In this document: positions 9,394 through 26,411 of the stretch, piece after piece
How the letters are laid out: each line of letters begins with the position of its first letter
How positions within the stretch are numbered: position 1 is the first letter of the stretch
Assembly (NCBI RefSeq): GCF_003144095.1
Contig: NZ_NSKH01000018.1
Span: forward strand, 279,716 to 343,715
Length of the DNA: 64,000 bases
Reading direction: 5' to 3'
Source: Streptomyces sp. ICBB 8177
GTDB lineage: Bacteria > Actinomycetota > Actinomycetes > Streptomycetales > Streptomycetaceae
Program-made: the position numbers and the translations under genes
Notes under the pieces: model-generated
Seen by the model: only the letters and a program-made list of their open reading frames with translations
What the model was told of the DNA's origin: nothing
Database searches by the model: none

Positions 9394-10155
9394 TCAGCTT
9401 CGGGCCGCGCGCAGGCGCCAGCAGTGGCAGCTCATGGGCAACGCGAGCGTGCCGGTGTCGGTGAGCGTGCGGAAGCGGGTGCGGATCGCCTCGGCGAACT
9501 CCTCGCGGCGGTCCGGCGGTTGGGTCAGGTAGCCGCTGTACGTGGTGAACATGCCGACCAGTTCGTCGGCCGTCACCCGCGTCCGCCAGCGCACCGTGTG
9601 CGACTCCACGCCCGTGAACGGCGCGCCCTCAGGGAGCCACAGGTGCTCCGTCATGTGCTGGATCGCGCGGCCCACCCGGTCGCCGGTGCCGAGGAACTCG
9701 GCCACGAAGGCGTCGAGTTCGGCGACCCACGCGACGCCGCGGTCGCGCCGGGTCCACAGGATGCCGAGCGTGCCGCCGGGGCGCAGGACGCGGGCGATCT
9801 CCGGCAGGGCGCGCGCGGGGTCCATCCAGTGCCAGGCCGCCGAGACCAGCACCGCGTCCACCCGCGCGTCCGGCAGCGGCACCGCCTCCGCCGTGCCCTC
9901 CAGCGCGACCGCCCGCGGACAGGCCTGCGCCAGCACCTCGCGCATCCGCGGGTCCGGGTCGACCGCCACCACGTCCGCCACGCGCTCGACCAGCACCCGG
10001 GTCAGCAGGCCGGTGCCCGCGCCCAGGTCCAGCACCGCCCCGCAGCCGTCCGGCAGCAGCCAGTCGACCGCCTCGGGCGGCGGGCCCGGCCGGTAGCGGT
10101 CGTAGGCGCGGGCCGCCGCCCCGAAGGACGTGGCCAGGCCGGTGCTCTCGTTCAT
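9394..10155 (-). CDS. Class I SAM-dependent methyltransferase
   Basis: 253-aa soluble enzyme with the Rossmann-type methyltransferase fold. Motif I is VLDLGAGTGLLT (about residues 40-51), the acidic residue of motif II is in VVAVDPDPRM, and the post-motif LVSAAWHWMDPARALPEIARVLRPGGTLGILW segment (three parts in the chain, about 103-135) is typical of the UbiE/BioC-like methyltransferase_11 group. The substrate cannot be predicted. It starts 18 bases after the stop of the DUF742 gene on the same strand, which is the position of the GTPase CvnD in complete conservons, so it is probably transcribed with the conservon. It converges with the SUKH immunity gene with only 12 bases between the stops. 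Confidence 0.85.
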   Translation of the reverse strand: MNESTGLATSFGAAARAYDRYRPGPPPEAVDWLLPDGCGAVLDLGAGTGLLTRVLVERVADVVAVDPDPRMREVLAQACPRAVALEGTAEAVPLPDARVDAVLVSAAWHWMDPARALPEIARVLRPGGTLGILWTRRDRGVAWVAELDAFVAEFLGTGDRVGRAIQHMTEHLWLPEGAPFTGVESHTVRWRTRVTADELVGMFTTYSGYLTQPPDRREEFAEAIRTRFRTLTDTGTLALPMSCHCWRLRAARS

Positions 10156-10173: not shown

Positions 10174-10527
10174 CTACAGCCCGCGTAATCCGACCAGGAC
10201 CCGTTCCAGCAGCGTGATGTCCGGGACGCCCTCGGCGTGACCGGGCTGCATCACGTGGACCAGGCCGCTCTCCGCCATGTCGCCCACCAGGACCCGGGCC
10301 ACGCCCAGCGGCATCTTCAGCAGCGCGGCGATCTCCGCGACCGACTTCAGTTCCACGCACAGCCGGCAGATCGCGCGCTTCTCCGGCGCGAGCCGCGCCC
10401 CGCCGTACGGCACGTGCGGGCTGGTGCTGACCAGAGCCTCGATCGCCAACTGGTAACGCGCCTGCGTCCGCCCGCCGGTGACGGCGTACGGTCGCACGAA
10501 CGGTGACGACCTGTGGTCTCCACTCAC
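10174..10527 (-). CDS. DUF742 conservon protein (CvnC-type)
   Basis: 117-aa protein of the DUF742 family, the third member of Streptomyces conservons. Family features visible are the N-terminal VRPYAVTGGRT, followed by a winged-helix-like part (RAICRLCVELKSVAEIAALLKMPLGVARVLVGDMAESGLV, spread over about 50-90). CvnC proteins form a membrane-associated complex with the kinase CvnA, the roadblock protein CvnB and the small GTPase CvnD. The penultimate-region codon for Leu114 is TTA (10186-10188), a rare codon in Streptomyces that needs the bldA tRNA. The gene follows cvnB with about 58 bases between them, and the methyltransferase gene follows after 18 bases. Confidence 0.9.
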   Translation of the reverse strand: MSGDHRSSPFVRPYAVTGGRTQARYQLAIEALVSTSPHVPYGGARLAPEKRAICRLCVELKSVAEIAALLKMPLGVARVLVGDMAESGLVHVMQPGHAEGVPDITLLERVLVGLRGL

Positions 10528-10585
10528 GAGTGCCCATCCTTCCCCACGTGGCCGGGGCGATCGGCCATTCCCACGTTCATCCCGT

Positions 10586-11008
10586 TCATCCGGCCAGCGC
10601 GCCCTGCAACTCGGCGCGCACCTTCGGCGTCAGCACCTCGCCGGTGCGCTCCACCATCAGGGTCATCTCGTAACCCACCAGCTTCAGGTCGCAGTTGGGC
10701 GAGGACAGGACCGCCAGCACCGAGCCGTCGCTGATCGCCGCCACGAACAGGTAGCCGTGCTGCATCTCCACCACGGTCCTGGTCACGGACCCGGCGTCGA
10801 AGACGTTCGCCGCCCCCGTCGTCAGCCCGGCGAGCCCGGAGGCCACCGCCGCCAGCTGGTCGCCGCGCTCCTTCGGCAGCGCCTGCGACGCGGCGAGCTG
10901 GACCCCGTCCGAGGAGACCACCACCGCGTGCGCGACTCCGGGGACGCGGTCCACGAACCTGGCGATCAGCCAGTTCAGGTTCTGCGCCGCCTCGCTCAGC
11001 TCGGCCAT
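10586..11008 (-). CDS. Roadblock/LC7 domain protein (CvnB-type)
   Basis: 140-aa protein made of one roadblock/LC7 domain: LNWLIARFVDRVPGVAHAVVVSSDGVQLA (about 11-39) and the later DLKLVGYEMTLMVERTGEVL region. In conservons this protein is thought to regulate the GTPase partner, much as MglB-type proteins do in other bacteria. The upstream sequence AGGAGTCCCC puts a ribosome binding site right before the ATG. It sits between cvnA and cvnC; the gap to the cvnA stop (about 280 bases) is unusually long for a conservon and is filled by a 21-bp tandem repeat. Confidence 0.92.
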   Translation of the reverse strand: MAELSEAAQNLNWLIARFVDRVPGVAHAVVVSSDGVQLAASQALPKERGDQLAAVASGLAGLTTGAANVFDAGSVTRTVVEMQHGYLFVAAISDGSVLAVLSSPNCDLKLVGYEMTLMVERTGEVLTPKVRAELQGALAG

Positions 11009-11157
11009 GGGGACTCCTAGGTATCGACGTGGTCAGCGTCTCGCACGTGCCGGGCCACCGAGGGCCCGACGACGCGGGGGCGCGGGCCGCCGGCCGGCGG
11101 CCCGGCGGTGCGGCGGGCGGACGGCCCGGGTCAACGGCACGGCGCGCCGGGCCCGCG

Positions 11158-11306
11158 CGGCTCGCCGCGCGTCCGATACGGCTCACCGCACGTTGGATAC
11201 GGCTCGCCGCGCGTCCGATACGGCTCGCCGCACGTTGGATACGGCTCGCCGTTCGTCTGATACGGCTCACCGCACGTTGGATACGGCTCACCGGGCGTCC
11301 GATTCG
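11158..11306. repeat. 21-bp tandem repeat between cvnA and cvnB
   Basis: Six full units of 21 bp (11171-11191, 11192-11212, 11213-11233, 11234-11254, 11255-11275, 11276-11296) with partial copies on both sides. Each unit carries GATACGGCTC followed by RCCG, and the units alternate between a form starting GTCCG and a form starting GTTGG, so a 42-bp higher-order period is also visible. The cvnA stop codon (11288-11290) lies inside the last unit. There are no spacers, so it is not a CRISPR array. On the minus strand one frame is open through the array and would read as repeated GEPYxTx heptapeptides; this frame is not the cvnA frame. Confidence 0.95.
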
Positions 11307-14077
11307 TCCGGGCGTCCGCCCGTGCCACGGCCACCCGCCTCGTCGAGGCCGTGCCGCACGCCCTGCCGGAAGTTCGACAGGCGCTGCTTGAGCCGTTCTG
11401 CGGCCTCCGGCGAACGCAGGGGCTGCGGTTGGGGCTGCGGCCGTGGTGCCCTCGCCGCGGGCGGCGTCTGCTGCCGCTGGGCGGGCGGGACCCCCCGGAC
11501 CCGGCGCGGCAGCTGCGGGCGCCCGGGGTCGGAGGGCCGCGGCGGTCCCGCCGGGGGCTGCGCGGGCCTGCTGTGCTCGGGCGCCGAGCCGTGCCCCGGC
11601 CGCCGTCGTGGCAGCGTTCCGGCGCCGTCGCGCTGCTCGTGGCCGTACCACTCCGACTCGATCGCCTCGAAGATCGGCAGACGGGGGGAGGGCTGCCCGC
11701 CGGACGGCGGTGGCGGCGGGTCGGTGAAGGCGTGGACGCCGTCCGGCCCGGTGCCCTGCGGCTGCTCCTCGAACCACGTGAAGTCGGCGCCCGGGTAGGC
11801 GTCCTGGGGCGACGGCGCCTGCGAATCCTGCTCCGGATCCTCCTCGTGGAACCAGCCGAAGCCCTCGTTCGCCGGCGCCCCGCGGTGCTCGCGCACCAGC
11901 CGCTCGAACGCCGCGTCGTCCTCCGGCTCGTCGGAGAAGGGCCGCTCGGGGAAGGCCTCGCCGCCGAGCATCCCGCCCAGGCCGGTCGGCGCGTCGTACG
12001 TGCCCGGCCGCATCGCCAGGTCGAACGCCGTGCCCGCGTCGCTGTCCACCTCGCTCGCCGCCTTCAGCAGCGACATGGGCAGCGTCACCAGCGCGCTGAC
12101 GCCACCGGTCGCCGCGTGCTCCAGCCGCACCCGCACGCGGTACTTGGCCGCCAGCCGTCCGACGACGAACAGCCCCATCCGGCGCGAGATGGCCACGTCG
12201 ACCACCGGCGGCTCGGCCAGGCGGGCGTTGACCTCCGCCAGTTCCTCGGGCGGCATGCCCAGGCCCGCGTCGGTGATCTCCAGCAGGACCGCGCCGTATC
12301 CCAGCGTCGTCGCGCCCACGACCACCTCGGTGTCGGGGGCGGAGAACTCGGCCGCGTTCTCGATGAGTTCGGCGATCAGGTGGACCACGTCGGTCGCGGC
12401 GTGGCCGGCCAGCGCGATGTCCGGCAGCTCGGTGACCGTGACGCGTTCGTACTGCTCGACCTCGGCGGTGGCGGCGCGGACCACGTCCAGCAGCAGCACC
12501 GGGCGGTTCCAGCGGCGGCCCTGCTCCTCGCCCGCGAGGACGAGCAGGTTCTCGTTGTTGCGGCGCATGCGGGTGGCGAGGTGGTCGAGCTTGAAGAGGC
12601 TCTCAAGCCGCCCCGGGTGCTGCTCGCCGCCCTCCAGCTCGTCGATCAGGCGCAGTTGGCGCTGCACGAGGCTCTCGCTGCGACGCGAGAGGTTGGTGAA
12701 CATGGCGTTGACGTTGCCGCGCATCATCGCCTGCTCGGCGGCGAGCCGCACCGCCTCGGAGTGCACCCGGTCGAAGGCCCGCGCCACCTGGCCGACCTCG
12801 TCGCGCGAGCGCACCCCGATCGGCCGCACCCGCATCAGGTCCTCGGCCTCGTCCGGGTCGGAGAGCCTGGCGTCGCCGAGCCTGCGCACGACGTCCGGCA
12901 GCCGCTTGTCCGCGATCTCCAGCGCCGAGCCGCGCAGCGCCCGCAGTGGCCGGACCACCGAGCGGGCCAGGACGGCGGCGCCGAGGAACGACAGGAGCAC
13001 CACGGCGACGATGATCGCGACGTTCTCGTACAGTTCCTCGCGGCCCGCGTCCAGCAGGTGCGAGGCGCGCTGCGTCATGGCGGCGATGACGCGGTCCTGA
13101 ATGCTCTGGATCGCCTCCAGCTTGACGGTCATCGCCTGGTAGGCGGTCTGCTCGCTCGTGCCGAGGCTGCTGAGCGGGGTGCCTTCCTGCGCCGCGTCGG
13201 TGACCGCCTGGAGGGTGCCGTCCGCCGCGCCGATCTCGTTGCCGCTGACCGTGGACTGGTAGAGGTTGGCGATCCCGGCCGGGGCGTCGTTGGCGATGGC
13301 GTCGTAGGCGCTGGTGAACTGCGCCTGGGCCTGCTCCAGTTCCTGCTTCTGCTCCAGGGTGAAGCCGCCGCTGCGCAGCACGCCGACCAGGTAGCCGCGT
13401 TCGACGGAGGTCTGCTCCTCGGCCTGCTCGACCTGCGCGAGGGTGGCGACGAGGTTGCCGAGGGTGTGGTCGGTGGTGTTGACGGACAGCTGATCGCCGA
13501 AGTCCATCAGGTCGTCGATGATCGTGGTGTACGCGGTGAAGGTGGGGGCGACCGTTCCCAGCCGGATCACCGAGGCCCGCAGGGGCGCCAGGTCCCCGAG
13601 CCTGGCCTCGGCGCGGTCGCCCAGCAGCCGGGTGGCGGGCGGCAGGTCGGCGACGGCGCGGTGGTGGCGGTCCAGCGCGGTGGACAGCGCACCGGCGGCG
13701 GTGTCGGTGGCCTGCCGGGCGCGGGCGAGCGAGGCGTCGCCGTGGACGCCGGTGCCGGTGAGCGCGACCTCGGTCAGGTCGCGTTCCTCGCCGACCTGGT
13801 TGACCAGGGTGGAGATGCGCTGGGCCAGCAGCGCCTGGTCGCGCAGATCGGCGACGGCGCGCAGGGTCCCCAGGTCGGTCACGACGCGGACGCCGGCCAG
13901 CGGGATGATGGCGATCAGGGGGACGAGGACGAGCAGCAGCATGCGGTTGCGCAGCCGCCAGTCGCTCAGCTTCCATCCGCCGCCGCGCCGCCGCGTTAAT
14001 CGGCCGTGCGGTGCCGGGCGGGGCCGGTGGTCGTCCAGGGGTGCCCGGCCCGGGGAGGTCGCCGGTCGTCCGTCCAC
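11288..14077 (-). CDS. Conservon sensor histidine kinase with NIT sensor domain (CvnA-type)
   Basis: 929-aa membrane kinase. Order: a short basic N-terminus; TM1 (about 46-66, RMLLLVLVPLIAIIPLAGV); a large extracellular nitrate/nitrite-sensing (NIT)-like helical domain (about 70-345); TM2 (about 352-375); HAMP; a dimerisation helix with KLDHLATRMRRNNENLLVLAG; a HATPase domain with the N-box ELIENAAEFS (about 572); and a disordered Pro/Gln/Arg-rich tail (about 660-929). This is the CvnA arrangement, in which the kinase recruits CvnB-CvnC(-CvnD) at the membrane. The start is GTG 14077 with GAGGG about 5 bases upstream. Leu27 is encoded by TTA (13997-13999), so translation may depend on bldA. 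The gene is divergent from the ABC importer. The stop lies within the 21-bp repeat array. Confidence 0.9.
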   Translation of the reverse strand: MDGRPATSPGRAPLDDHRPRPAPHGRLTRRRGGGWKLSDWRLRNRMLLLVLVPLIAIIPLAGVRVVTDLGTLRAVADLRDQALLAQRISTLVNQVGEERDLTEVALTGTGVHGDASLARARQATDTAAGALSTALDRHHRAVADLPPATRLLGDRAEARLGDLAPLRASVIRLGTVAPTFTAYTTIIDDLMDFGDQLSVNTTDHTLGNLVATLAQVEQAEEQTSVERGYLVGVLRSGGFTLEQKQELEQAQAQFTSAYDAIANDAPAGIANLYQSTVSGNEIGAADGTLQAVTDAAQEGTPLSSLGTSEQTAYQAMTVKLEAIQSIQDRVIAAMTQRASHLLDAGREELYENVAIIVAVVLLSFLGAAVLARSVVRPLRALRGSALEIADKRLPDVVRRLGDARLSDPDEAEDLMRVRPIGVRSRDEVGQVARAFDRVHSEAVRLAAEQAMMRGNVNAMFTNLSRRSESLVQRQLRLIDELEGGEQHPGRLESLFKLDHLATRMRRNNENLLVLAGEEQGRRWNRPVLLLDVVRAATAEVEQYERVTVTELPDIALAGHAATDVVHLIAELIENAAEFSAPDTEVVVGATTLGYGAVLLEITDAGLGMPPEELAEVNARLAEPPVVDVAISRRMGLFVVGRLAAKYRVRVRLEHAATGGVSALVTLPMSLLKAASEVDSDAGTAFDLAMRPGTYDAPTGLGGMLGGEAFPERPFSDEPEDDAAFERLVREHRGAPANEGFGWFHEEDPEQDSQAPSPQDAYPGADFTWFEEQPQGTGPDGVHAFTDPPPPPSGGQPSPRLPIFEAIESEWYGHEQRDGAGTLPRRRPGHGSAPEHSRPAQPPAGPPRPSDPGRPQLPRRVRGVPPAQRQQTPPAARAPRPQPQPQPLRSPEAAERLKQRLSNFRQGVRHGLDEAGGRGTGGRPDESDAR

Positions 14078-14549
14078 TGACCCTCGCTACGTCGTCGCCC
14101 TGGCACCATGGCCTCGGTTCGGTGCCTCGGTTGTGGTGCGACGCCCGCGGTCGGTGTGCCACGGCGGTACGTCCGTCGGTGCCGACGTCGGTACGTGCTG
14201 TGCGCTGTGTCGTCGCGGAGACGCATTCCAACACACCCCGCAGCCGCCGTAAAGCGTGCGCACAGCAAGGGATCCGGCGTATCCGGACGCGTCCGCCGCC
14301 GCCGGGCGCGCCCCGGTTCCGGACCGCGCGGCCGGGATGCGGCCCTGACGTCGGATATCGGACGGGTGAGTCACAGGACACCCGTTCGTGCCACGGGCAT
14401 ACGACGGCCGATGTGATTTTTCATTCAACTAGCCTGGCGCCGCAGGGCGGAATCACTCCCGTGATGCGAACGGCGCCCAGCCGGACGCCTGTTCGCCCTG
14501 GGAACAGGGAGGCTGTTGCGCACGCCCGGGATCTGGCAGCCTCACGCGG
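14078..14549. other. Divergent intergenic region between cvnA and the ABC importer
   Basis: 472 bases with no convincing gene. It should contain the promoters for both cvnA (leftward) and the ABC importer operon (rightward). The only notable compositional feature is an AT-rich patch at about 14412-14436 (GTGATTTTTCATTCAACTAG), a plausible promoter or operator core in this GC-rich genome. The sequence just before the GTG at 14550 shows no strong ribosome binding site. Confidence 0.5.
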
Positions 14550-15410
14550 GTGAGGACTGAATTACGGCAGGACCCCGACCCGGAACCGGACGCCGCCCGG
14601 CAGCCGGTGACACCCGTCCCGATCGTGCTGGACGGCGTCACCAAGTGCTTCGCCTCCCCGCGCGGTGAGCGCCGTCAGGCCGTGCGCGACGTGTCGTTCC
14701 GGGTGGAGCCCGGCTCGTTCACGGCCGTCATCGGGCCCACCGGCTGCGGCAAGTCGACGCTGCTGTCCCTGATCTGCGGCACCGAACGCCCCGAAAGTGG
14801 AACGGTGTCGGTGGACGGCCGGACGGTCGACGGCATCGGGGACGACATCGGCTTCGTCTTCCAGACCGACGCGGTCTTCCCCTGGAAGACGGTGCTGGGG
14901 AACGTCGCGGCCGGCCCCCGCTTCCGGGGCGTGCCGCGTGCCCGTGCCCAGGCGCTGGCGGCGGACTGGGTGCGCCGGGTGGGGCTCGCCGGGTTCGAGC
15001 GCTACCACCCGCACCAGCTCTCCGGCGGCATGCGCAAGCGGGTCGCACTCGCCCAGACGCTGGTCAACCGGCCGCGGGTGCTGCTGATGGACGAGCCGTT
15101 CTCCGGCCTCGACGTGCAGACCCGGCAGATCATGTCGGACGAACTGCTCTCCCTGTGGGAACTGACCCGCCCCTCGGTCGTGTTCGTCACCCACGACCTG
15201 GAGGAGGCGATCACGCTCGCCGACAAGGTCGTCGTGCTCACCGCGGGCCCGGCCACGGTCAAGGAGGAGTTCGTCATCGACCTGCCCCGGCCGCGCGACG
15301 CCCGGGAGATCCGCCACCACCCCGACTTCGTCCGCCTGCACGAGCTGGTGTGGAAGGCGCTGCGCGACGAGGTACGGGTGGCGTACGAACGCGGCCTGGG
15401 GGCGGCGTGA
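14550..15410 (+). CDS. NitT/TauT-family ABC transporter ATP-binding protein
   Basis: 286-aa ATPase that powers import of a small anion-like substrate (nitrate, sulfonate, taurine or related). Motifs: Walker A GPTGCGKST (about 63-71), the Q-loop FVFQTDAVFPWKT typical of the SsuB/TauB/NrtD group, signature LSGGMRKRVALAQTL, Walker B VLLMDEPFSGLD, and H-loop VFVTHDLEEA. GTG 14550 gives an N-terminal extension of about 20 residues; an in-frame GTG at 14607 is an alternative. If 14550 is right, Leu5 is TTA (14562-14564), a bldA-type codon. The stop overlaps the permease start (GTGA), showing translational coupling. Confidence 0.88.
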   Translation: MRTELRQDPDPEPDAARQPVTPVPIVLDGVTKCFASPRGERRQAVRDVSFRVEPGSFTAVIGPTGCGKSTLLSLICGTERPESGTVSVDGRTVDGIGDDIGFVFQTDAVFPWKTVLGNVAAGPRFRGVPRARAQALAADWVRRVGLAGFERYHPHQLSGGMRKRVALAQTLVNRPRVLLMDEPFSGLDVQTRQIMSDELLSLWELTRPSVVFVTHDLEEAITLADKVVVLTAGPATVKEEFVIDLPRPRDAREIRHHPDFVRLHELVWKALRDEVRVAYERGLGAA

Positions 15411-16351
15411 ACGGCGAGAGCGTGAGCACGGAAGGCGTGGACGCCGAGAGCGCCGGGGGCGTGAGCGCTGAGGGCGTGAGTACGAGGACGGTGCCGGGCG
15501 TGGCGGGGGCGCGGGCCCGAGCGGGCCTTCCCGGCGGCGCCGCCGGCGTCCGCCGGGCCCGGTTACGCGGGCGGCCCCTGGTCGTCGCCGCCGGGCGCGT
15601 CGCGGTGCTCGTGGTCTTCCTCGGCGCGTGGCAGCTGCTCGCGGCCACCCACACCATCGACACCTTCTACTTCGGTGAACCCACCGGCATCTGGGACCGG
15701 TTGGAGACCTGGGTGCGGCACGGCACCTCCCAGGGCCCGCTGCTCACCCAGGTCTGGGTGACCCTCCAGGAGACCCTGCTCGGCTTCGGCATCGGCACCA
15801 CGCTCGGCGTGGCCTGCGGGATCGCGCTCGGCAGGCTGCGGCTGGCGGCCGACATCCTCGCGCCGTACATCAAGACCGCCAACTCCGTCCCGCGCATCGT
15901 GTTCGGCTCGGTCTTCGCGATCTGGTTCGGCCTCGGCATCGGCTCGAAGGTCGCGCTCGCGGTGGTGCTGGTCTTCTTCGGCGTCTTCTTCAACGCCTTC
16001 CAGGGCGCGCGCGAGGTGGACCGCGCCCTGATCGCCAACGCCCGGGTGCTGGGCGCCGGCCCGGTGCAGGTGACCTGGCAGGTGGTCGTGCCGTCCGCGC
16101 TCAGCTGGATCACCACCAGCCTGCACGTCGCCTTCGGGTTCGCCGTCACCGGCGCGATCGTCGGCGAACTGCTGGGCGCGCAGCAGGGACTGGGCCTGCT
16201 GATCTCGCAGGCGCAGGCCAACTTCGACCCCGACGGCGTCTACGCGGGCCTGGTCATCACCGCGCTGCTCGCACTGACCGCCGAGGGCCTGATCACGCTG
16301 CTGGAACGGCGGTTGCTGCGCTGGAGACCGCGTACCGGCTCCAACCGCTAG
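15407..16351 (+). CDS. NitT/TauT-family ABC transporter permease
   Basis: 314-aa membrane component of the importer. After a 60-residue Ser/Gly/Arg-rich cytoplasmic leader come about six membrane segments starting with VAVLVVFLGAWQLLAA. The EAA-type coupling loop is visible as the segment EVDRALIANARVLGAGPVQ. The GTG start overlaps the stop of the ATPase gene by the sequence GTGA. Leu53 is encoded by TTA (15563-15565). The sequence is of the SsuC/TauC/NrtB type; the substrate cannot be fixed from it. Confidence 0.87.
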   Translation: MNGESVSTEGVDAESAGGVSAEGVSTRTVPGVAGARARAGLPGGAAGVRRARLRGRPLVVAAGRVAVLVVFLGAWQLLAATHTIDTFYFGEPTGIWDRLETWVRHGTSQGPLLTQVWVTLQETLLGFGIGTTLGVACGIALGRLRLAADILAPYIKTANSVPRIVFGSVFAIWFGLGIGSKVALAVVLVFFGVFFNAFQGAREVDRALIANARVLGAGPVQVTWQVVVPSALSWITTSLHVAFGFAVTGAIVGELLGAQQGLGLLISQAQANFDPDGVYAGLVITALLALTAEGLITLLERRLLRWRPRTGSNR

Positions 16352-16477: not shown

Positions 16478-17539
16478 ATGTGGCGCAAGAAGATCGTCGT
16501 CGCGGCCGCCGCCCTCGCCCTGACCACCACGGTCTCGGGCTGTTCCGGCTCGGGCGGCGACGGCCAGGACGGCAAGGACGCGAGCGGGCTGACGACGGCG
16601 ACCATCGCCCTGTCCAACCAGCAGAACCAGAGCTACCTGCCGCTGATCCTCGCCCAGCGCCTGGGCTTCTTCAAGAAGCAGGGCCTGGACGTCAAGATCG
16701 ACAACCTCCAGTCCACCAGCCAGGTCACCGACGCCCTGCTGGCGGGCCAGGTCCAGGGGATGATCGGCTTCTTCGACCACAACCTCGACCTCCAGGCCAA
16801 GGGCAAGCGGACCGAGTCGGTGATCCAGCTGCTCCAGGCCCCCGGCATGGTGGAGATGGCCCGCACCGACGAGTCCATCGGCTCCCCCGCCGACCTGCGC
16901 GGCAAGACCGTCGGCGTGACGGCCCTCGGCTCCTCGACCTCCTACCTGGGCGACTACCTGTCGCTGCACGACGGCGTCCCGCTGGACCAGACCCACCTGG
17001 TGGCCGTCGCCGCGGGCCCGACGTTCGTCGCCGCTTTCCAGCACCACCGCGTCGACGCGGGCGTGACCACCGAGCCGACCATCTCCACCCTGCTCCAGAA
17101 GCACCTGGCGAAGATCACCACCGACATGCGCACGCTCGCGGGCACCAAGGCCGCGCTCGGCGGCCCGTACCCCGGCACCTGCCTGACCGTGCAGGCCTCC
17201 TGGGCCGCGAGCCACAAGGACGTCGTGCAGAAGATGGTCAACGCGCTCTACGCGTCGTTGCAGTGGATCGAGACGCACTCCGCGACCCAGGTCACCGACC
17301 AGGTCCCGGCGGACTTCTACGCGGGCTCCGGCAAGCAGAACTACATCCAGGCGCTCGCCAACGAGATGGGCATGTACGACCCCACCGGTCAGATGCCCAC
17401 CGACGCGCCGCAGACCGTCCTGCGCGTGCTCTCCGCCATCGACCCGGTGGTCAAGGGCCACTCCATCGACCTGTCGAAGACCTACACGGACACCTACGTG
17501 CAGCAGGCGTCCCAGGAGGCGGGACACGCGGCGAAGTGA
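16478..17539 (+). CDS. NitT/TauT-family substrate-binding lipoprotein
   Basis: 353-aa extracytoplasmic solute-binding lipoprotein of the importer. The N-terminus MWRKKIVVAAAALALTTTV has a lipoprotein signal peptide ending in the lipobox VSGC (Cys23 or so), after which it would be lipidated. The body belongs to the NMT1/SsuA-like fold: PLILAQRLGFFKKQGLDVKI, LLAGQVQGMIGFF, and ADLRGKTVGVTALGS are typical of aliphatic sulfonate, nitrate and thiamine-precursor binders. The start ATG has AGAAGGAGAAG close upstream. It lies 126 bases after the permease gene and is followed by a perfect 12-bp hairpin, so it ends the operon. Confidence 0.88.
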   Translation: MWRKKIVVAAAALALTTTVSGCSGSGGDGQDGKDASGLTTATIALSNQQNQSYLPLILAQRLGFFKKQGLDVKIDNLQSTSQVTDALLAGQVQGMIGFFDHNLDLQAKGKRTESVIQLLQAPGMVEMARTDESIGSPADLRGKTVGVTALGSSTSYLGDYLSLHDGVPLDQTHLVAVAAGPTFVAAFQHHRVDAGVTTEPTISTLLQKHLAKITTDMRTLAGTKAALGGPYPGTCLTVQASWAASHKDVVQKMVNALYASLQWIETHSATQVTDQVPADFYAGSGKQNYIQALANEMGMYDPTGQMPTDAPQTVLRVLSAIDPVVKGHSIDLSKTYTDTYVQQASQEAGHAAK

Positions 17540-24887: not shown

Positions 24888-26411
24888 TCAGGCCTCGCCG
24901 CCCCCCGGCGCGGACTCGGACGCAGGGCCGGGATCGGTCCCTGGGGCGGGCTCCGGTGTGGTCCGGCCCGGCAGGCGGCCTTGGACCGCCGCCACCGTGT
25001 ACGCCGCCAGCGCGAGGGCGGCGACGCCCAGCGCCACCGCCAGGTCGCGGCCGTCCTGCCGGGACAGGGCCAGCGCCGCCCCGACCACGGCCACCAGCGG
25101 CGGCAGCGGCCACCACGGCATGCGGAACACCCCGCGCAGCCCCCGCCCGCGCACCCGGCCGACCAGCGCGGAGACCGCCACCAGCAGGTACACCACGACG
25201 ATCATGACCCCGGTGAAGGTCACCAGGTCGTCGAGCGAACTGAACACGCACAGCAGCCCGTTGCCCAGGAAGAGGAACGCGAACGCCCGCACCGGCACCC
25301 GCGAGCGCGCCGACGTCCGTGCGAAGAAGCCGTTCAGCGGCCCGGGCAGCATCCCGTCGCGCGCGGTCGCGTAACAGACGCGCGCGTAGCCGAGGTTGGC
25401 GGCGAGACCGGTGTCGAACATCGCCACCACGACGCCCGCGATCAGCGCCCTGGCGCCGTCCGCCCCCATCACCTGGCGCGCGATGAGCGACAGCGGTGAG
25501 GCGTCGGAGGAGGTGCGGCCCAGGTCCCCGACGGCCGAGGTCGCGGCGACGACCGCGAGCAGTTCGACGACGACGGCGACGACCGCGGCCACCACGACGG
25601 CGCGCGGGCCCGCGCGGCGCGATCCCCTGGACTCCTCCACGAAGTACAGCGGCCAGTCGTACCCGTTGAAGGCGAACAGCGCGGGCACGACGGCGGTCAG
25701 CAGCGCGCCGAGGCCGACCGCGTGCGGCAGCGCGCCCGACCCCTGCGCCGCCCTCGGATGCCCGAACGGGTGCGCGCCCGGCGCGGCGTGGGCGAAGGCG
25801 AACGCGGTGAAGACCAGGATGACGGCGAGTTCGAGCACCAGCATCGCGGCGGCCACCCAACTCGCCGGTGACACGCGGCCGATGGACAACGCGGTCACCA
25901 GCGTCATCATCCCCAGCGCCACCCACCCCGTCGGCAGCCCGCCGGGTACCAGCGAGGACAGATAGGTGGCAGAGGCGACCAGGATCGAGGCGGTCGAGAC
26001 CAGCCCCAGCAGCAGGAAGAGCACCGCCGTCACGCCGCCGGCGACCGGTCCGAGCGCACCGCGCACGATCGCGTAGCAGCCCCCGGCCGACGGGAAGCGC
26101 CCGCCGGCCTCCGCGTAACACAGCGCCATGCACAGCGCGATGACCGCGCCGATCACGAACGCCCACACCACACCGGTGCCTGCGGTGCCCAGGCCCGAGC
26201 CGTAGACGAGGAAGACGGAGGTGGTCGGCGAGATCGCGGCGACCGCGATGGCCAGCACGTTCAGCGGGCCGAGTGCGGCGCGTTCCAGACCTACGTCCGC
26301 CCGCCCCTCGTCAGCGCGTCCCTCGTCCGCCCGTCCCTCGTCGCCGTCCGGCCGCCCGGGCGCGGTGCCGCTGTCGTCCGCCGGTCCACCGGCACGTGTC
26401 GCGTCAGCCAT
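24888..26411 (-). CDS. APC-family amino acid/polyamine permease
   Basis: 507-aa secondary transporter with about 12 membrane helices between residues 50 and 470. The APC signature is visible in the first helix (LGPLNVLAIAVAAISPTTSVF) and in ALCYAEAGGRFPSAGGCY (about 95-112). The N-terminal 40 residues are hydrophilic and contain three tandem copies of a DEGRA unit, an in-frame 15-bp repeat. The substrate is probably an amino acid or amine, with no sequence clue to which. It may be co-transcribed with the MDR dehydrogenase gene downstream. Confidence 0.88.
   Translation of the reverse strand: MADATRAGGPADDSGTAPGRPDGDEGRADEGRADEGRADVGLERAALGPLNVLAIAVAAISPTTSVFLVYGSGLGTAGTGVVWAFVIGAVIALCMALCYAEAGGRFPSAGGCYAIVRGALGPVAGGVTAVLFLLLGLVSTASILVASATYLSSLVPGGLPTGWVALGMMTLVTALSIGRVSPASWVAAAMLVLELAVILVFTAFAFAHAAPGAHPFGHPRAAQGSGALPHAVGLGALLTAVVPALFAFNGYDWPLYFVEESRGSRRAGPRAVVVAAVVAVVVELLAVVAATSAVGDLGRTSSDASPLSLIARQVMGADGARALIAGVVVAMFDTGLAANLGYARVCYATARDGMLPGPLNGFFARTSARSRVPVRAFAFLFLGNGLLCVFSSLDDLVTFTGVMIVVVYLLVAVSALVGRVRGRGLRGVFRMPWWPLPPLVAVVGAALALSRQDGRDLAVALGVAALALAAYTVAAVQGRLPGRTTPEPAPGTDPGPASESAPGGGEA

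Follow-up and report, generated by a model that had tools for sequence, protein, structure and literature searches.

In-frame TTA codons in a cvnD-less conservon and its divergent NitT/TauT-type importer in Streptomyces sp. ICBB 8177, and their possible dependence on bldA

The stretch analysed here, 64,000 nucleotides (279,716-343,715) of contig NZ_NSKH01000018.1 of Streptomyces sp. ICBB 8177 (hereafter the window), holds a conservon, that is, an actinobacterial G-protein-type signalling operon, back to back with an ATP-binding cassette (ABC) importer, and in-frame TTA codons lie in both. In streptomycetes UUA is read by the bldA tRNA alone, and TTA often links genes to late growth and development in related soil bacteria. 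The question raised by this locus is whether sensor and importer are placed by these codons under one developmental control, as the original prediction proposed. With moderate confidence, we favour the reading that this conservon, which lacks cvnD, would be expressed late and in a bldA-dependent manner, and that in this genus the dependence would extend to the importer.

Four TTA codons in two facing operons

The four TTA triplets that the original prediction had placed in cvnC, cvnA, the ATPase gene and the permease gene were found at those coordinates and in those frames, and its claim that the other genes of the window have none was borne out by an automatic count over 51 genes called with our own codon-usage gene caller, which found no further in-frame TTA within any scored gene. 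Beyond cvnA and the ATPase, other in-frame TTA triplets are confined to 5' extensions of three open reading frames (ORFs). One of these, at 126-128, lies immediately ahead of a cobalamin riboswitch (130-249), and the reading frames of the remaining ones run across genes called next to them. The riboswitch itself (39.8 bits) precedes the first large gene. The four codons, all of them kept in the sister species (locus L101), are as follows.

10186-10188, minus strand: TTA, cvnC codon 114 of 117; secure; Leu at the aligned column in 11 of 11 loci
13997-13999, minus strand: TTA, cvnA codon 27 counted from GTG 14077; very likely coding
14562-14564, plus strand: TTA, ATPase codon 5 counted from GTG 14550; coding only with the GTG 14550 start
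15563-15565, plus strand: TTA, permease codon 53 counted from GTG 15407; secure

The permease codon is secure because the first hydrophobic stretch begins just after it, with no fitting start codon in the interval, and the cvnC codon because it lies near the stop; both are independent of the choice of start. By its domain matches, the locus is a cvnD-less conservon (cvnABC, then a methyltransferase gene) divergent from a NitT/TauT-type ABC importer, with a gap of 472 bases between cvnA and the ATPase gene. The window has a G+C content of 73.4% and the source assembly comprises 6.33 Mb; the closest named relative found, Streptantibioticus parmotrematis (L035), is not a Streptomyces. The genes of the locus and a conserved block between the two operons are listed below.

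9394-10155, minus strand: S-adenosylmethionine (SAM) methyltransferase, 3' of cvnC, no TTA (Pfam PF08241, 9.4e-23)
10174-10527, minus strand: cvnC (DUF742), 117 amino acids (Pfam PF05331, 1.2e-36)
10586-11008, minus strand: cvnB (Roadblock/LC7), no TTA (Pfam PF03259, 6.8e-22)
11288-14077, minus strand: cvnA, sensor kinase-like, with NIT and HATPase_c domains (Pfam); HAMP under its cut-off
14531-14552, plus strand: strongly conserved DNA block ending at the ATPase GTG; 12 loci aligned, with a 1-base gap in L102 only
14550-15410, plus strand: NitT/TauT-type ABC importer ATPase, start at 14550 or at 14607/14625 (Pfam PF00005)
15407-16351, plus strand: ABC importer permease, its start overlapping the ATPase stop (Pfam PF00528, 1.2e-26)
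16478-17539, plus strand: NMT1/SsuA-like substrate-binding protein, no TTA (Pfam PF09084, 1.6e-22)

A tandem array (11158-11303; 3.5 copies of a 42-base unit with a 21-base subunit) runs from the cvnB-cvnA gap into the 3' end of cvnA.

The Pfam matches place cvnA, cvnB and cvnC in conservon order. In the parts of PMC13343842 and PMC8510531 that were consulted, conservons likewise have a cvnA with NIT and a kinase-like ATPase, a Roadblock cvnB and a DUF742 cvnC in the same order; the present one differs in that no small GTPase gene cvnD was found and a methyltransferase gene follows cvnC. No match to cvnD was obtained by tblastn at 1e-3 in the window, in L101-L110 or in L037, the sequence of L103 and L037 ending at or soon after the conservon. 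The query, the CvnD of region L236 (PF03029), does match L236 itself and L232-L235, five regions with other conservons. Of the ten loci L101-L110, seven have a homologue of the methyltransferase; none was found in L104 and L109, which extend about 3 kb past cvnC. On the importer side, Pfam and NCBIfam identify an adjacent ATPase, permease and NMT1/SsuA-like binding protein, the same set that lies side by side in NitT/TauT importers of taurine, aliphatic sulfonates and nitrate, and the best NCBIfam models for the ATPase are of the taurine/nitrate type. The present importer differs in that the NCBIfam scores listed, which for the ATPase are the top 25 out of 186, all fall short of the curated cut-offs for a named substrate.

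Rarity, enrichment and distribution of the codons

TTA is very rare elsewhere in this genome: the 171,659 codons sampled outside the locus contain 5, each in a different gene of the 501 covered. The sample includes five regions chosen for their conservons, one of which, L236, accounts for 2 of the 5 TTA genes. With 5,500 genes assumed, the number of six-gene runs expected per genome is 8e-4 for at least four TTA genes, 0.11 for three and 8 for two. Judged by the window alone, the case therefore depends on the codons of cvnA and of the ATPase, and a comparison with relatives is needed.

Orthologous loci were collected by a permease identity of at least 70% from sets of 249 genomes (the window genome included), 35 genomes and 1 genome. 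Such a permease was found in 11 genomes, all Streptomycetaceae, and in 11 of 11 cvnA adjoins the importer divergently. In a twelfth locus, L037, cvnABC lies downstream of the importer on the same strand. No conservon gene was found at 1e-8 near more distant importers (seven loci, L111-L117) or in 20 loci of other bacteria (L042-L061, some of them short). That conservon and importer belong together, which had been argued from the TTA codons, is better supported by this divergent layout, conserved in 11 loci, than by the codons.

TTA sites vary by lineage. Besides L101, which has 4 of 4, TTA occurs in cvnC and cvnA in L102, once in cvnC and twice in cvnA in L109, in cvnA and the permease in L103 (where the sequence stops before cvnB and cvnC), and in cvnA in both L110 and L037. 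Conservon genes thus carry TTA in 7 of the 12 loci and importer genes in 3 of 12, the latter in two lineages. Two sites are common to L102 and L109 and one to L103, L109 and L110; L102 and L109 are not sisters in the tree, so the sites that they share are either older TTAs lost elsewhere or the result of transfer. TTAs that directly precede the likely start of cvnA, or that only a longer upstream reading of this gene takes in (L103-L107), were dropped before counting. So were those that the ATPase takes in when read from farther upstream (L103-L108, L110) and one in L109 cvnA at alignment column 15. All of them precede the likely starts, but some, for example in L105 cvnA and in the L103 and L104 ATPases, would be in frame with a start farther upstream. 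In relatives an ORF may stand between cvnA and the ATPase (L108, 11360-12280; L109, 11640-12776). The idea that it is a component of the conservon which the window has lost was rejected, since both ORFs align with the N-terminal region of IS4-type transposases.

When eight genomes were pooled, the locus held 14 TTA in 17,221 codons versus 21 in 363,438 background codons, a 14-fold enrichment (Fisher 1.4e-10). Eight of the 12 loci enter this test; the other four were left out as having no background sample of their own, and they contribute two TTAs (L103), one (L037) and none (L104, L107). In the same eight genomes the rare codons CTA, CTT, TTG, ATA and AGA show no rise in the locus (ratios 0.6-1.3). 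Between the window and L101, TTA is retained in 4 of 4 cases and other rare codons in 8 of 17, small numbers that favour the bldA reading.

Translation starts and competing explanations

The original prediction was exposed to the possibility that cvnA and the ATPase truly begin downstream of their TTA codons. In cvnA, no ATG, GTG or TTG lies between GTG 14077 and ATG 13942, and the latter is within the first hydrophobic stretch. The cvnA proteins of relatives have a tail of about 35 residues ahead of that stretch, which perhaps begins at a [VM]T motif that is absent from the window. Because no other start precedes the hydrophobic stretch and relatives have the tail, the cvnA TTA is very likely, though not certainly, coding. 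For the ATPase the signs are divided. The GTG at the position of 14550 is conserved in 12 of 12 loci, and a protein begun at the next start in L107 or L108 would lose part of the conserved core. Codons 2-19, however, show no coding signature: among nine relatives, differences at codon positions 1, 2 and 3 are 0.17, 0.23 and 0.19, versus 0.10, 0.06 and 0.28 in the gene body. No Shine-Dalgarno sequence was seen by eye before the GTG within the block 14531-14552, which may serve as promoter for a leaderless transcript or as a site bound by a regulator. A riboswitch 5' of the ATPase was sought and rejected, with no Rfam family at gathering score and a lone weak match of 16.6 versus 43 bits; the fold upstream of the ATPase is only mildly stable (z -1.86).

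A number of observations count against bldA control of both operons. Starts chosen by codon usage only (cvnA ATG 13942; ATPase GTG 14607 or 14625) lie downstream of both TTAs, the ATPase start at GTG 14550, and with it the coding status of its TTA, is unproven from the sequence comparison, and the cvnC TTA, 4 codons from the end, is an odd site for a switch. No TTA occurs in these genes in 5 of the 12 loci (L104-L108). Retention of TTA is mixed beyond the sister species: 2 of 2 from L102 to L109, 2 of 4 from L109 to L102, 1 of 4 from L109 to L110 and 1 of 2 from L103 to L110. The pooled test is inflated by homologous sites shared by descent; counted as distinct sites there are 7 (p 8e-5), or 6 without the ATPase (p 6e-4). 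It also favours the locus in that locus starts were taken from homology and background starts from codon score; with codon-score starts on both sides, 5 distinct sites are left (p 0.0036). Without the discovery genus, 6 cells are left (Poisson p 0.001, Fisher 0.0025), with 3 distinct sites (p 0.10), so that independent support for TTA enrichment appears real but modest. Three further codons are raised in the locus, AAA 1.75-fold (p 0.012), ACA 1.74-fold (p 0.0036) and TTT 1.99-fold (p 0.06); relaxed codon bias as the sole cause is nevertheless disfavoured by the five rare codons that are not raised. In Streptomyces coelicolor, according to the part of PMC2000904 consulted, just 2 of 147 genes affected by loss of bldA contain TTA, and one annotated TTA turned out to lie upstream of the likely start.

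Some of these points suggest other explanations. Selection for TTA might act in the conservon only, the importer codons being incidental or, for the ATPase, part of a 5' leader, and the two operons would then be linked by function or shared promoter DNA and not by translation. The greater frequency of TTA in conservon genes than in importer genes, its presence in cvnC of other conservons (see below) and the missing coding signature of ATPase codons 2-19 speak for this explanation; the secure permease TTA, which the sister species shares, and a second permease TTA at a different site in L103, which also has one in cvnA, speak against it, and on balance we hold it to be rather unlikely. That the codons are neutral, weakly expressed and rarely used genes having gathered rare codons in a cluster that arose by chance and was kept by short divergence, seems improbable. 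Where the window and L101 have the same L, V, A, G, P, T, R or S residue, they use the same codon in 86% of cases, which agrees with a neutral origin; such an origin is also in keeping with the 8 runs expected genome-wide when only two TTA genes are counted, with the 3 distinct sites of the relatives and with the mild rise of AAA, ACA and TTT. Against it stand the unraised CTA, CTT, TTG, ATA and AGA in the same genes, a third-position GC of 0.93-0.96 across the four TTA genes, and the sites common to L102 and L109 in spite of a 66% sharing of such codons. Least probable of all is an artefact of start assignment, by which cvnA and the ATPase would begin downstream of their TTAs and two ordinary TTA genes would remain. 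The codon-score starts, the unsupported ATPase codons 2-19 and the lack of a start codon in L105 and L106 at the cvnA position equivalent to 14077 agree with an artefact, but the next cvnA ATG, GTG or TTG would begin the protein within its first hydrophobic stretch, and the cvnC and permease TTAs are untouched by the choice of start.

The shared developmental switch of the original prediction therefore holds in part. It agrees with the rarity of TTA, the four codons kept in the sister species, the TTA-specific enrichment and the bldA machinery described below; it is not general, with 5 of 12 loci free of TTA and importer TTA in 3 of 12, and its ATPase codon hangs on an unproven start.

The bldA circuit, other conservons and a possible mechanism

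A bldA-type tRNA-Leu(UAA) gene is present in the same genome. ARAGORN separately calls a tRNA within a called gene at 24965-25044 of the window; its type is undetermined, its anticodon has four bases, and it is probably spurious. The adpA gene (L246) has one TTA, at codon 263 of a 495-codon ORF, between the DJ-1/PfpI and AraC-type domains; it is the sole TTA carrier among the genome's 9 PF01965 matches, and its AraC-type DNA-binding part matches the solved AdpA structure 3w6v (2.7e-77). In the part of PMC4255298 consulted, an interdomain TTA in adpA is a mark of the streptomycete bldA-adpA circuit. The present case resembles bldA/TTA control as described there in its UUA codons, the tRNA-Leu(UAA) gene, the great rarity of TTA and the interdomain adpA TTA, and conserved TTA genes in that account are often regulatory or signalling genes. 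It differs in that bldA dependence is here a prediction, and the combination of TTA in a conservon and an ABC importer is absent from the part of Table 2 of that paper that was covered.

TTA in a conservon is already known. In the same table, as far as it was consulted, cvnC13 (SCO7465) has TTA in 9 of 12 streptomycetes (Chandra and Chater, PMC4255298), and it resembles the present cvnC, on TTA presence alone, as a conservon cvnC gene with a TTA common across species. Among 29 distinct cvnC genes of four genomes, 8 have TTA; 4 of these 8 belong to the present conservon, leaving 4 of 25 outside it (L271 and L272 were counted as one gene, L267 hinges on its start and L266 was included). In the second conservon of the genome, L236 (4830-10565), TTA occurs in cvnC and also in a terpene synthase gene that lies divergently; cvnD and a P450-like gene are present there as well. 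Among the matches listed for the L109 orthologue of the present conservon, the best from Streptomyces are 59-65% identical, many of them in pairs that lie some 5 kb from each other in one genome, and TTA occurs in none of the 30 best-scoring ones fetched (0 of 30); TTA is therefore not universal to conservons. In searches of open-licence papers, most of them covered as listings, no account was found of the present conservon with its importer, or of TTA across several conservons. It is possible, though doubtful, that the bldA gate acts by preference on certain conservons, TTA having been recruited repeatedly to cvnC or cvnA of different conservons and to a divergent client gene (the importer here, the terpene synthase in L236), so that sensor and client would be licensed together by one rare tRNA.

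Under the favoured reading of bldA-dependent late expression, the mRNAs of cvnC, cvnA, the permease and possibly the ATPase contain UUA, and full-length proteins would be made mainly when the bldA tRNA is abundant. This would be late in growth or during development, which would set the timing of both gene sets. The UUA near the cvnA start and that in the permease could hold back both operons, and polar effects on downstream genes are possible; such polarity of TTA within an operon has been proposed (PMC2000904, in the part consulted). In the portions of PMC8510531 and PMC13343842 at hand, CvnA is the input, and CvnC and CvnD belong to a separate part that comes later. Placed next to a NitT/TauT-type importer, the sensor might sense the imported nutrient, and in place of the absent cvnD a CvnD could be borrowed from elsewhere or the methyltransferase used. 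We infer the timing, the gating and the membership of sensor and importer in one pathway.

Conservons are widespread, and the codon evidence bears on the timing and the clients of one of them together with its importer. Such evidence also offers a means of flagging, from sequence only, conservons possibly tied to development. The cvnD-less layout offers a natural test of how far the small GTPase is required.

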